From the NCBI GenBank assembly GCA_945861465.1, contig CAMAVB010000057.1:1-34328 (forward strand): a DNA stretch of 34,328 nucleotides, written 5' to 3'. Source of the DNA: Candidatus Kuenenia stuttgartensis. GTDB taxonomy: Bacteria; Planctomycetota; Planctomycetia; Planctomycetales; Planctomycetaceae. The translations under genes were made by a program, and so were the position numbers. This document shows, piece by piece, positions 14,609-18,543 of the stretch; within the stretch, counting starts at the first letter, position 1; each line of letters begins with the position of its first letter. The notes below the pieces were generated by a model. The model had not been told where the DNA came from, made no database searches, and saw only the letters and a program-made list of their open reading frames with translations.

Positions 14609-15262
14609 GCGGGCCATTGCGCTAGTCCTGAATGTCGTGCGCTGGCCATGATGTTACCCTTCAGAAATGCCGTGGATAGTTTCATCTTTAACATGCAAGA
14701 CAGAATCGGGAGAAATTTTCCCAAAATCTCAAGCCGCAGTTTTCCGTACTTTCCTCGATTCACATTCTATTCAGAATTTGCTGCAATGCGACTGGTTCGC
14801 GTCGATCGGCTGAAATTTCCTGTTGAAACGTCTCATCGGCAAATTGCCGCGGAGCTGATCCCAATAAATTCCAGACTGTTCGTTGATTCATTGGTCCCGA
14901 GAAGTTCGACTTTGGGTCGATATTGTCGTGCAGCCGAGACGAGTTGCACGATCGGAAAAATCTGCTTGAGGTTAACAATACAGAAAACAGAATTTGACTA
15001 TCATTCGAGGATCGAAGAATTCAGCCTTTTCACAAAACAGGAGCGCTGTCAAAATCAGGCTCTGGAGAAATCTTCTCCGAATTGAAATGAATTCAAGATC
15101 CTGATACCCGAGGTACTCTTTTAGGCAGATCGTTGCGTTCACACACACCTGCCTCGGGACTTCTTACAAAAACTGTCGCACCTGATCGATTGAAGGGTTC
15201 AAACACTGGGTTTGAAATCAACTAAAATGTGCCGTGAAAGGTTATGATCTTCGAGTGCTGTC
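14609..15262. other. AT-richer gap, no supported gene
   Basis: The 654 bp contain an open frame of 145 codons (14648-15085, plus), but its composition is like non-coding DNA, it lacks a ribosome-binding site and nothing in it is recognisable. Some of this stretch should hold the promoter of the small gene at 15263. Confidence 0.45.
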
Positions 15263-15466
15263 ATGCCAAACGAAAAGTCCCTGCCCGATGAACTGCGTGG
15301 TCTGATTGAAAAGCGATCTGTGAAAGATCGACGAAAAAAAGATCCAGACCGATTATCCGACGACGATGATGGACAAGCTGCCAGCCCCGCTTCGGCCCGC
15401 AAGCCGCCGCGAGATCGTCGCCAGCAAAAGAACTTCCGCGATCTACTCGACGAAGACGACGAATAG
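15263..15466 (+). CDS. Small highly charged protein, function unknown
   Basis: A 67-residue protein rich in Asp, Arg and Lys: an N-terminal PDELRGLIEKR segment, a central DDDD run and an acidic end (LLDEDDE). No cysteine pairs, no signal and no membrane segment. Charged mini-proteins that start with a short PxxLxGLIEKR helix occur in planctomycetes, which is why I favour a real gene. The ribosome-binding site is weak (only GAG about 8 nt upstream). It is probably disordered; a role in binding a partner or nucleic acid is speculation. Confidence 0.5.
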   Translation: MPNEKSLPDELRGLIEKRSVKDRRKKDPDRLSDDDDGQAASPASARKPPRDRRQQKNFRDLLDEDDE

Positions 15467-15740
15467 CCGCCGGATTGATCGCTGAACCTTTACAGACAGA
15501 ACGCAGGATTCAGGCGTTCCTCGTGTTCGCGCGCGATCGTTCGGCAGGATTGACATTCCCACACAGCGCTTCCTTGACTCGCTTTCCGGGTTGATCTACG
15601 GGTTTGCTGCGCTCGTGGAACCAATTCATTTTCTCATGGTTCCAAAGGCGACAGCGCGAGACTTTCCAGTCTGCGTGCCGCTACAATCAACCAGTTAGCA
15701 TTTCTGACGGTCGATACTTGGGCGCGGATCGGACGTCAGA

Positions 15741-16781
15741 TTGAACGACCCAAATTCCAACGATGCGACGGTGGTCCCGCAGGGGAATCCGATCATGGCG
15801 GACGGTACGTCCCTTGAACACCCGAAACGCATCGGGCGCTACCGGATCGAGAGAGTGCTCGGCAAGGGTGGCTTTGGACTGGTCTATCTGGCACACGACG
15901 AACAACTGAATCGCCGCGTCGCGATGAAAGTGCCGCACGCGAAGTTGATCTCGAAGCCTGAAGATGCCGAGGCATATCGGGTCGATGGTCGGTCAGACAT
16001 TTTCGCATTGGGCGTGGTGTTTTACGAGTTGCTCGTTGGTCGCAGGCCGTTCCGGGGCGATACCCAGGCTGAACTCCTGGAACAAATCACCAGCTACGAG
16101 CCAAAGCCACTTCTGCAATATGACGAAAAACTGCCGAAGGAACTTCAGCGGATTTGCCTGAAGGCGTTGTCCAAGCGAGCATCGGACCGCTATTCGTCGG
16201 CGTATGAAATGGCAGACGACCTGCAGCACTTCCTGGCCGAGCAGGTTGTGATCCAGGATGGACGGACACCGGGCGGCGTCGCAGCCCAGACCCAGGCAAC
16301 CACGCCTGATTCAACGCCATTTATTCCCATAACTCCCATAACTCCCATATCATCTTCGACCGGCACAGGGACTTCGGACAGCCAACCCATCAGGATTGTT
16401 CCCAAGGGCCTGCGATCTTTTGACGCTCACGACGCCGACTTTTTCCTGGAACTGCTGCCCGGCCCCCGAGATCGCCAGATGTCTCCCTCGAAGCTGACGG
16501 CGGTGGGCGGTGAGAAGTTGCCGAATGCCTGGGGCCTGCATGATGTTCATGGGAACGTGGGGGAGTGGTGCTGGGAAACATACTCCGGCGCAGATACCCA
16601 CCGTGTTTTGCGTGGGGGCTCGTTCAGCTTTGATACGTCGCCCGCTGCCTCAGCCACCCGCCTCATCATCCAACCGGACGCCCGGCTCGACGTCAGTGGT
16701 TTCCGTGTTGCGAGGACCTTAAATCCTGTCCCCTTTGCTGCTTCACCACCCGCCGCAGGCGGGTCGAAATTTGAAACTTGA
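15741..16781 (+). CDS. Collapsed Ser/Thr kinase to FGE-sulfatase fusion, DGR target-like
   Basis: A 346-residue frame made of pieces of a much larger protein. Residues 30-79 are the kinase N-lobe: GKGGFGLVYLA glycine loop and Lys63 in VAMK. At about residue 79 it jumps into the C-lobe (VDGRSDIFALGVVFYELL, 81-98). The HRD and DFG catalytic motifs, some 130-150 residues, are missing, so it cannot phosphorylate. Residues 219-245 (IVPKGLRSFDAHDADFFLELLPGPRDR) normally introduce an nSTAND NTPase, which is also gone. Residues 260-326 are the end of a formylglycine-generating-enzyme (FGE)-fold domain: LPNAWGLHDVHGNVGEWCW, RVLRGGSF, GFRVART. Both junctions keep frame. The last 24 codons of FGE homology are a candidate DGR variable repeat. 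The TTG start precedes the NDPNSNDATVVPQG leader I know from relatives; ATG at 15795 is the alternative. Confidence 0.75.
   Translation: MNDPNSNDATVVPQGNPIMADGTSLEHPKRIGRYRIERVLGKGGFGLVYLAHDEQLNRRVAMKVPHAKLISKPEDAEAYRVDGRSDIFALGVVFYELLVGRRPFRGDTQAELLEQITSYEPKPLLQYDEKLPKELQRICLKALSKRASDRYSSAYEMADDLQHFLAEQVVIQDGRTPGGVAAQTQATTPDSTPFIPITPITPISSSTGTGTSDSQPIRIVPKGLRSFDAHDADFFLELLPGPRDRQMSPSKLTAVGGEKLPNAWGLHDVHGNVGEWCWETYSGADTHRVLRGGSFSFDTSPAASATRLIIQPDARLDVSGFRVARTLNPVPFAASPPAAGGSKFET
16644..16714 (+). other. Candidate DGR variable repeat (VR) at the FGE C-terminus
   Basis: This stretch codes for residues 302-325 of the kinase/FGE protein. It starts with GCTGCCTCAGCC and ends with GGTTTCCGTGTTGCGAG, both exactly shared with 17201-17268. 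Between these anchors, 12 of 15 mismatches fall at adenines of the downstream copy; VR has one extra codon. The position at the very end of an FGE/C-type-lectin-fold protein is typical for VRs, and the 17-bp 3' anchor would correspond to the IMH. Confidence 0.8.
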
Positions 16782-16828
16782 CATGATGAATTCGACATGA
16801 TTGGAAAAAGCCAGTGGCCGGTCGAAAA

Positions 16829-16942
16829 AGAGATGAAGTACTGATTGTGATTACGAAGACGTACGACTTCATCCTGTGGTCGTGCAACCACACAGGGAAA
16901 TTTCTGCGGAACCATTGGTTCCTGCTGAGGGAACCATTAGAA
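16829..16942 (+). pseudogene. avd: Fragment of DGR accessory gene avd
   Basis: The frame reads VITKTYDFILWSCNHTGKF and continues RNHWFLLREPLE. This fits the first helix and loop of bAvd-type proteins (TKTYDFILW, then F-P-R-N-H-R-F-x-L-G-E-R-I-E), the four-helix accessory protein of DGRs related to 23S rRNA intervening-sequence proteins. Only about 38 codons remain; the rest of the roughly 110-130 residues is replaced by a GGCCC-rich repeat. No good start codon is left in frame, so it is not a working gene. Its location between the candidate VR gene and the candidate template repeat is exactly where avd sits in many DGRs. Recognition is by eye from memory of the family. Confidence 0.65.
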
Positions 16943-16953
16943 CTGAACTGTCG

Positions 16954-17160
16954 GCCCGTTGGGCCTCAAAACGATCATGGTTCGTCCTGATTCCTGGGCC
17001 GACGCTGATCGCTTTGGCCCGGGCTATTTGAACGGGTGGGCCGTTGGCCCGGAACACATTGCGATTCCGGGCCAAAGGCCCATGTGTTCGCATAGCCTGG
17101 CCCAAAGCGAAGCGGCGGGCCAGGTCAATTCAGCCCCAAAAAATCGCCACGGCCCAACGG
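16954..17160. repeat. GGCCC-rich repetitive stretch
   Basis: Repeated short blocks of CGGCCCGTTGGGCC, GGGCCAAAGGCCC and GGCCCAACGGGCC type recur here and resemble the arms of the palindrome at 1112-1227. It is probably a decayed dispersed palindrome inserted between the avd fragment and the template repeat. Confidence 0.5.
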
Positions 17161-17200
17161 GCCAACCGTTCGGCTTTCCACGTTCGGTCATCAACCAAAC

Positions 17201-17268
17201 GCTGCCTCAGCCGACCGCAACAACCAACCGGATAACCGGAACAAGAACAATGGTTTCCGTGTTGCGAG
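17201..17268 (+). other. Candidate DGR template repeat (TR)
   Basis: This non-expressed copy reads as an FGE C-terminus unusually rich in Asn codons: DRNNQPDNRNKNNGFRVAS, with AAC/AAT at six codons plus AAG. AAC-rich templates are the hallmark of DGR TRs, because the retroelement randomises adenines on the way to the VR. The 5' anchor GCTGCCTCAGCC and 3' anchor GGTTTCCGTGTTGCGAG are identical to the VR at 16644-16714. Partial similarity extends about 30 bp further upstream. It follows the avd fragment and would normally precede the reverse transcriptase, which is absent. Confidence 0.8.
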
Positions 17269-17446
17269 TACCTTGCCTTGCCGGAATTCGCTGGGTGACA
17301 CCAGCAGAGCGTGCCAGGGTGCAAAGTCCATCGCCGTCCTGTGTCGGGCTGCCGTTCATCTCAATGAGGAGCGGTCGTTCGGCCAAATGCAAAACCGTTC
17401 CGGCGGGTCTGGTAGGCCGCAAGGCTCGACCCCGCCGGATCATTTG

Positions 17447-17626
17447 CTAACGGACAATACGGTACACGATGACCACGCTGAGGATATACTCACGGGTTCT
17501 GAAGTCAACGACTGGTTCCTGTTCAACCGAGACGGCGACGGAGGTGTCAAGGACAAGGCGATCGATCTGTCGGCCTTCGAATTGCTCTATGCTTTGGACC
17601 TCGACTGGCTGAACAACGGCATTTGA
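17447..17626 (+). pseudogene. C-terminal tail of a giant planctomycete surface protein
   Basis: About 59 residues: AEDILTGSEVNDWFLFNRDG, then DKAIDLSAFELLYALDLDWL, ending NNGI before a TGA stop at 17624-17626. The D-x-L-T-G-S-x-x-x-D-W-F-x-x-N pattern is the usual last module of very large cadherin/RTX/Calx-beta-like planctomycete proteins. The frame is shared with the preceding TR by chance or by a deletion junction, and no start codon, signal or upstream repeats are present. It sits where a DGR reverse transcriptase would be expected. Confidence 0.6.
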
Positions 17627-17703
17627 GGAACGTGACGACGTGTCGTGCTCTCGATTTCTACTACCAGCCGGTATGCGTTAGCCTCCGGTTTATTCAAAAT
17701 TAC

Positions 17704-18016
17704 GGTTCAACGATAAATGAAGTCCGCGGAGGAGGACTGGTGTTTAAACCGCGAATGGACGCGAATACACGCGAATAGCGGCAGAGATCCAGTGTGGGTT
17801 CATTTCGAATGAATCTTCAACCCGCGCGGGCTCTGAAGTCATGGCGCGGAAACCTCTCATTTTTCAGTTTTTTTGAACTTATTCGCGTCCATTCGCGGTT
17901 CAGATCTGCTTTCCATCGACACCTACAAAGTTGTTGACGTGCCGATTCGTACTCATTTCGACTTCACCGAATAATTGCCAGGATTCTGTGCCGCGCACTT
18001 CATCTGTCGTTGAACC
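17704..18016. mobile_element. MITE-like inverted-repeat element, copy 2 (313 bp, inverted relative to copy 1)
   Basis: The ends are GGTTCAACGATAAATGAAGT and the complement of GGTTCAACGACAGATGAAGT. Its reverse complement aligns by eye along the whole of 4650-4963 with scattered differences, including the internal inverted pair containing CGCGAATGGACGCGAATA (about 17751-17772 and 17880-17902) and the CATGACTTCAGAGCCCGCG block. No protein is encoded and no clear target duplication is seen. It ends 23 bp beyond the stop of the orphan gene at 18040-18321. Confidence 0.85.
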
Positions 18017-18039
18017 CCTATTTATCAAGCCGCCCTAAC

Positions 18040-18321
18040 TCAACCGGGAATCCAGATCTTCTGCGCCTGGACGATTTCACAGCCGTTGGGAAGAGTCAAA
18101 GGGAACGACGACTTCGTATAGAAGGCAAGGCCCTTGTAGCTCGACAGGTACTGGTAGCTGGTACTGAAGAACCCGCCTGTTGCCTGCACCACCAGTGGTT
18201 CCTGCTGACGGCTGAGGATACGCAGGAAGTCTGCTGGCTCGACCCGCACAATCGCGCCCGAGGCCTTGATCGCCTGCGCCACTGCGGCTGCGGCTGCCGC
18301 AGCACCTGCACTTGTACTCAT
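18040..18321 (-). CDS. Conserved small planctomycete orphan protein
   Basis: A 93-residue soluble protein: an alanine-rich start (STSAGAAAAAAAVAQAIKAS), then VRVEPADFLRIL, PLVVQATGGFFSTSYQYLSS and a C-terminal EIVQAQKIWIPG. I recognise the middle and end as a widespread uncharacterised family, but no function is known to me. I chose the ATG at 18321 because GAGGCGGGG lies about 6 nt upstream; an in-frame ATG ten codons earlier is only one base from the tRNA-Leu gene. It lies just downstream of tRNA-Leu on the same strand and may be cotranscribed with it. Confidence 0.65.
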   Translation of the reverse strand: MSTSAGAAAAAAAVAQAIKASGAIVRVEPADFLRILSRQQEPLVVQATGGFFSTSYQYLSSYKGLAFYTKSSFPLTLPNGCEIVQAQKIWIPG

Positions 18322-18351
18322 ATTAAGCCCCGCCTCAAAGGATTTGTTCAT

Positions 18352-18437
18352 TAGCCAGGACGGGAATCGAACCCGTACGCCCCTTTAGGGGCCCGGGATT
18401 TTAAGTCCCGTGCGTCTGCCTATTTCGCCACCTGGCC
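18352..18437 (-). tRNA. tRNA-Leu (anticodon UAA)
   Basis: The minus strand folds as a class II tRNA of 86 nt: a 7-bp acceptor stem starting GGCCAGG (first pair G-U), anticodon stem with loop CTTAAAA giving UAA, a long variable arm GCCCCTAAAGGGGC, and T arm CGGGTTCGATTCCCG. CCA is not encoded. Confidence 0.95.
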
Positions 18438-18543
18438 ATGTGTGAGAGGGAAGAGTAATGAAGATTCGCGTCAGAACAAACTGAAGCGACACATTTCCTT
18501 GCAGACTTGTTCGCGAACAGGAACCGGGGATTCTGAAGATCCC

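Follow-up and report, generated by a model that had tools for sequence, protein, structure and literature searches.

In multicellular bacteria, CLec/FGE tails on nSTAND1 proteins have been presented as putative antigen sensors that DGRs diversify (PMC10907252). The nSTAND1 clade is also named among counter-invader systems, in a treatment whose passages on the clade do not bring in FGE tails (PMC8195603), and wider conflict systems have been described with a mention of their association with DGRs (PMC7159879). Dispersed CLec paralogs, some of them grafted to a kinase, are reported in PMC7517822, as is all3226, a cyanobacterial DGR-target paralog for which remnant TR-VR homology is described there, with neither an RT gene nor an RT pseudogene in its vicinity. 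PMC3521204 considers an FGE ORF with three VRs as a possible artefact, a pseudogene or an expressed gene. The titles and abstracts of the literature that we searched hold no description of a deleted kinase-nSTAND1-FGE form.

The locus studied here is a mini-ORF (Table 1) in the window, as we call the whole analysed stretch of 34,328 nucleotides. With the STAND NTPase/FGE (CLec) sensors, in the features given for them in PMC10907252, it shares a C-terminal FGE domain bearing a VR and, in its parent proteins, nSTAND1; unlike them, its kinase, nSTAND1 and FGE domains are all cut, and it is accompanied by a putative avd stub and a degenerate TR, with no RT recognised in the window. A diversified C-terminal CLec and VR/TR traces without a nearby RT also characterize all3226 as portrayed in PMC7517822, but in the window the target itself appears to be shorter by about 3.6 kb through two internal deletions, and an avd-like fragment is still present. 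Contig C418 of the same genome carries a comparable arrangement of a kinase followed by an FGE domain with VR, avd and TR, whereas its kinase and FGE domains are nearly complete and its avd match spans positions 2-104 of 104. We conclude that the mini-ORF is very probably a decaying, internally deleted paralog of a DGR-target sensor, with a relic cassette beside it; the locus is most likely an informative fossil and not a new kind of protein.

An earlier note on this DNA had described a 346-residue in-frame protein in which the kinase N-lobe is joined to the C-lobe without HRD and DFG, and in which a hinge that normally introduces an nSTAND domain is followed by a jump to the FGE C-terminus. 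The open frame, the Pfam pieces and the alignment with paralogs uphold this anatomy in each of its parts; the VR, the avd-like fragment and the template-repeat relic had been missed. The mini-ORF is a single open frame of 346 codons without frameshift or stop, and DNA alignments place a TTG at the position equivalent to its TTG start in contigs C376 and C45. A search of the mini-protein against its own genome (G000; 8.2 Mb in 474 contigs) reported 78 matches, of which only the window's own locus covered residues 1-346. Pfam recognised the kinase in two stretches, scanned apart, corresponding to positions 1-40 and 177-254 of the 263 of the Pkinase profile (the N-terminal piece alone scoring 19.9 bits against a cut-off of 31.7), and the FGE-sulfatase domain, incomplete, from about position 162 to the end of its 255-position profile with a score over the cut-off; it gave no nSTAND match in the mini-ORF. 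The hinge, PKGLRSFDAHDADFF, is the opening of the first ~25 residues of nSTAND1 retained in the mini-ORF; in C156, residue 366 of the frame is where the nSTAND1 match begins. As for catalytic motifs, VAMK is kept in the kinase, while HRD and DFG fall within 129 absent codons, and the frame leaves nSTAND1 before the P-loop (Walker A), so that the remaining domain is absent as well. At the DNA level, blastn aligned the kinase N-lobe with C376 at 87% identity (399 bp, beginning upstream of the ORF), the C-lobe and hinge with C376 at 91.7% and with C45 at 90.7% (503 bp, reaching junction 2), and the FGE tail with C467 at 85% (400 bp, running beyond the stop codon up to where C467 ends). Taken alone, the FGE tails of the window and of C467 score 46.5 and 43.8 bits, respectively, against Pfam FGE-sulfatase.

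Table 1. Features of the mini-ORF, of the adjacent relic cassette and of their surroundings (positions in the window).
Feature	Position	Strand	Basis or remark
Stretch without colinear counterpart in the G011 and G014 flanks	15554..18350		~2.8 kb
Mini-ORF, 346 codons, TTG start	15741..16781	+	open frame; own-genome search
Kinase N-terminal piece: G-loop GKGGFG, VAMK lysine, ends at the start of helix C	15741..15977	+	
Junction 1, ATC common to both flanks	15976..15978	+	DNA alignment with same-genome paralogs
Kinase C-lobe after the APE motif, and linker	15979..16400	+	Pkinase profile 177-254
nSTAND1, first ~25 residues (PKGLRSFDAHDADFFLELLPGPRDR), cut before Walker A	16401..16475	+	residues 221-245; C156 alignment
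Junction 2, GC common to both flanks	16474..16475	+	DNA alignment with same-genome paralogs
FGE (C-type-lectin-like) domain, C-terminal part, and tail	16476..16778	+	FGE-sulfatase profile 162-255 of 255
DGR variable region (VR), 3' end of the ORF	16643..16720	+	direct repeat with 17200-17274, template-A bias
Probable avd (DGR accessory protein) remnant, positions 1-32 of 104	16841..16936	+	NF033474; place in the order VR-avd-TR
Palindromic GGCC-rich repeat, 46-nt arms	17009..17110		repeat search
Degenerate template repeat (TR), lacking one codon relative to both VRs	17200..17274	+	direct repeat with VR
Open-frame debris after TR	17275..17626	+	translation; without RT (tblastn)
tRNA-Leu (taa), right edge of the stretch without counterpart	18351..18438	-	

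Alignment with the paralogs confirmed both junctions of the earlier note. At junction 1, 387 bp (129 codons) present in C376 are absent, running from helix C to APE and including HRDIKPGN and DFGLAL. At junction 2, about 1081 residues (~3.2 kb) are absent, an estimate obtained by adding up C45 and C467, which are two different contigs; the frame breaks off nSTAND1 after some 25 residues and picks up FGE near profile position 162, such that nearly all of nSTAND1, the middle region and the front of FGE are gone. Both junctions are interior to domains and neither lies at a domain border. Full-length relatives, which the note had proposed to look for, do exist in the same genome: the missing parts are found in paralogs with full frames in C156 and C211, and in C376, C45 and C467, which are cut by contig ends. 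The identity of 2-3 bp at the junction flanks would fit deletion by short homology and, being only 2-3 exact bases, disfavours a k-mer collapse by the assembler, although the exact progenitor copy is absent from the assembly.

The claim that two in-frame deletions are unlikely by chance alone did not hold. With a probability of about 1/3 each, two independent deletions would both keep the frame in about one case in nine, and a script that dropped one or two bases at either junction led to a stop at codon 140, 110, 252 or 257. As an out-of-frame join would stop early and would not have been reported in such a form, the open frame of the mini-ORF is partly ascertainment. The in-frame deletions are therefore weak evidence of selection, given the chance of about 1/9 and a locus that was noticed because it is open.

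The VR at the 3' end of the mini-ORF and the degenerate TR downstream form a DGR signature in which the TR has changed since. Comparison of the window stretch with itself by blastn gave 15 differences between the two repeats, 11 of them at A; within a 57-base core, 10/13 differences fall at template A, which makes up 19 of the 57 bases (Fisher P 0.0003). Relative to the window TR, the VR of C467 is only weakly A-biased (7/12 differences at template A, Fisher P 0.045). A comparison of one VR with the other yields 10 differences, of which eight are at template A; where the window VR departs from the TR at a base other than A, which occurs three times, the C467 VR carries the same difference each time. 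As in a functional DGR, the VR lies at the 3' end of the target gene and differs mainly at template A; unlike in a functional DGR, the TR is one codon short and hence not colinear with the VR, and in the place of an intact avd or other accessory gene there is a match that covers no more than profile positions 1-32 of 104. A tblastn search of the window with the four RT frames of the own genome gave no convincing RT match (best E 0.20). An RT could conceivably act in trans on the window VR. The earlier description of a diversified FGE tail thus stands in the past tense, on the traces left in VR and TR; the RT for it is lacking in the window.

The avd-like fragment gives a low score on its own against NF033474 (15.4 bits, E 0.017 as a peptide; 13.0 bits, E 0.70 in a genome scan; cut-off 80), and a scan for the avd family at E up to 1 returned below-cut-off matches in 6 of 14 control genomes. 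We consider it a probable avd fragment on the strength of its position in the order VR-avd-TR, backed by a related stub in C450 (17.1 bits) and by DNA in C143 that is related as well but gave no match in the family scan.

Other DGR loci are present in the same genome, and those of C202, C200 and C418 serve as yardsticks for the A-bias of the window repeats. RVT_1 matches (E up to 0.001) were obtained in C202, C75, C286 and C200. C202 has an RT, a TR and two VRs, with 20/21 differences at A for each VR, and C200 an RT, a TR and three VRs, with 12/13, 14/15 and 15/16 differences at A. The scan for A-bias, limited to pairs in which A or T accounts for at least 60% of the differences, gave no pair in C286 or C75 at that threshold; C286 has an RT, an avd and a TR-like repeat that is known only by its similarity to the window TR. 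In C418, a DGR target with a 657-aa open frame combines a kinase (match 2-246 of 263) and an FGE domain (match 2-253 of 255), followed downstream, near the contig end, by avd and TR; all 15 differences between its VR and TR are at A. Its avd scores 74.9 bits, just under the cut-off, and the avd genes over the cut-off are those of C202 and C286. The window TR is 73-79% identical in DNA, over 47-68 bp, to the TRs of C202 and C418 and to the TR-like repeat of C286.

The relic appears to sit at a point of insertion or rearrangement, as about 2.8 kb around it have no counterpart in the flanks of G011 and G014, which by their flanking genes are among the closest genomes; the comparison concerns the fetched flanks only. 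G011 is colinear up to about 15469-15543 and again from 18350, where tRNA-Leu has its 3' end; for G014 the corresponding positions are 15553 and 18551. In both of these assemblies the two sides of the stretch are on different contigs. At gathering scores, Rfam found nothing in the window beyond the two tRNAs, and among the direct repeats listed for 15200-18500 there was no attachment-site or tRNA-end repeat.

In the dN/dS comparison that the earlier note had called for, the kinase and hinge are constrained to the same degree as in C376, and in the FGE tail outside the VR pN is close to pS. Between window and C376, dN/dS is 0.11 for the kinase N piece and 0.19 for the C-lobe and linker. When changes were assigned to branches, from the sites at which one of the three sequences (window, C376, C45) stands apart from the remaining two, the kinase and hinge showed synonymous to non-synonymous changes of 17:9 in the window, 14:8 in C376 and 35:25 in C45, which in the kinase N piece is the furthest from the others. 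The window branch is far from neutral (P 1.8e-5) and does not differ from that of C376 (Fisher P 1.0). As its ratio is the same as in C376, which is of the full-length type, this constraint may stem from a full-length ancestor and predate the deletions, which would then be late. In the FGE tail, 100 codons compared between window and C467 give a dN/dS of 1.62. Upstream of the VR, in codons 247-290, the values are pN 0.172 and pS 0.182, and the tail minus the VR codons has pN 0.205 and pS 0.158, values that include ten codons aligned across a small gap. Constraint on the tail outside the VR seems thus to be absent relative to C467, although the relaxed branch could be that of C467; by eye, some conserved FGE residues are kept in the window tail and lost in C467, and both tails have similar Pfam scores.

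We modelled the mini-protein with AlphaFold2 from a seven-row alignment and obtained a mean pLDDT of 39.2, with none of the 346 residues at or above 70. The control, the C376 kinase with a five-row alignment, had a mean pLDDT of 64.8 and 167 of 405 residues at or above 70. In the shared C-lobe, blocks with pLDDT 72-94 in the control (residues 201-300) compare with 35-60 in the mini-protein (residues 81-170). The prediction supports misfolding of the mini-protein, the alignments of 7 and 5 rows being shallow, and we infer that the product of the mini-ORF does not fold and has no function.

A short architecture shared as a distinct family, which the earlier note had named as an outcome to look for, was sought in three genome scans (59, 397 and 170 genomes, which overlap and include the own genome), and among the matches listed none had the same junctions. 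In the 59-genome scan, the one full-query row out of 17 was the window itself. In the class scan, with five candidates scored per genome, 117 of 397 genomes matched at E 1e-25, and among the matches listed only the window's own row extended beyond residue 253. A probe across junction 2 matched in 67 of 170 family genomes, and the listed rows mostly end or start near the junction; of the genomes without a match, 260 in the class scan and 83 with the probe were left unlisted. Besides the window's own, five probe rows begin ahead of residue 35 and extend well beyond the junction; by eye, they proved to be FGE-domain matches without the hinge. Five further candidates, with short open frames in the class scan, were inspected as short relatives, and in none of them are kinase, hinge and FGE joined in one short frame: in G311 and G237 the gene runs on into nSTAND, up to the contig end in the case of G237, in G245 the frame is left at the hinge, in G239 the kinase is split over two frames, and G151 continues in another frame. 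The kinase-hinge genes in G239:C70, G245:C1 and G151:C75 belong to the same family and have broken frames, which suggests that decay of such sensors is not rare, or else that these are sequencing errors.

Among the options raised by the earlier note, namely selection, decay or an assembly that collapsed repeats, decay fits best, with all3226 as a precedent for a dispersed DGR-target paralog, collapse is disfavoured and selection for a mini-protein is unlikely. The parent would have been a protein with a Ser/Thr kinase, an nSTAND1 NTPase, a helical/TPR-like middle and an FGE/C-type-lectin tail; by analogy with published systems of this kind, it was probably a sensor of invaders or antigens in which the diversified lectin tail would bind a ligand and signal through NTPase and kinase. 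A full-length copy would have arrived with its cassette of target, avd and TR. Later, two short-homology deletions would have removed sequence, one within the kinase and the other from the interior of nSTAND1 to the interior of FGE, both keeping the frame by happenstance, and the cassette would have worn down, with avd cut to about 32 codons and the TR losing one codon and acquiring non-A changes. We infer the order and the mechanism of the deletions from sequence comparison. Against decay count the 346 fully open codons and the 17:9 ratio of the window branch with its P of 1.8e-5, as well as the FGE relaxation that could lie on the C467 branch and the weak A-bias of the C467 VR relative to the window TR.

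Some of these same observations, that is, two deletions in frame with the frame open throughout and mostly synonymous changes in the kinase and hinge on the window branch, would agree with a mini-protein maintained by selection, useful as a short carrier of a diversified or fixed FGE tail or as a dominant-negative kinase fragment. The remnant TR-VR of all3226 is likewise read, in the account given of it in PMC7517822, as a possible removal of the machinery after an optimal variant had been selected. We regard such a mini-protein as unlikely: both deletions would be in frame in about one case out of nine, C376 shows the same ratio (14:8), the junctions cut through the kinase, nSTAND1 and FGE, the predicted mean pLDDT is 39, pN is close to pS in the FGE tail, and the architecture is in no other row among the matches listed. 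A lectin tail fossilised on a catalytically dead kinase/nSTAND stub and acting as a decoy or inhibitor of the full-length paralogs seems to us quite improbable; if true, the gene would be a DGR target that has lost both its catalytic core and the machinery for its mutagenesis, and was kept short.

An assembly artefact, in which reads of near-identical paralogs were misjoined and the real locus is full length, could be imagined in a genome of 474 contigs where C376, C45 and C467 end inside the gene family and C422 ends at the kinase start. It is hardly probable, as the 2-3 exact bases at the junction flanks are too few for a k-mer join, the stretch read contains no N, and within the ORF the window diverges by 8% or more from every paralog aligned and so is no patchwork of those contigs. 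A natural short family with the kinase fused directly to FGE without nSTAND has a precedent in the C418 target of the same genome, with its avd and TR. This explanation is extremely improbable for the mini-ORF, since C418 has a near-complete kinase and FGE, whereas the window has truncated pieces of all three domains and is closely identical to nSTAND-bearing paralogs; the junction positions already contradict it.

Read as decay by deletion, the locus would show a stage in the turnover of DGR-diversified sensors, in which paralogs disperse, lose the RT and then shrink by short-homology deletion. It also cautions that what looks like an in-frame "new architecture" may, next to a DGR relic, be a pseudogene, and it offers a worked route to relic cassettes, recognisable by VR, avd stub and degenerate TR, which would escape searches based on the RT.

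Within the open-frame debris that follows the TR, the frame at 17440-17626, reading EDILTGSEVNDWFLFNRDGDGG..., resembles a tail fragment of a calcium-binding-repeat protein; it has no Pfam match. The segment C143:5997-6344 was considered as a further target locus and rejected, for it is a copy of the DNA from the avd stub to the palindrome and lies outside long frames. Copies related to the GGCC-rich palindrome occur in C143, C130, C419, C160 and others, and in C143 the palindrome is found together with the avd-stub DNA.
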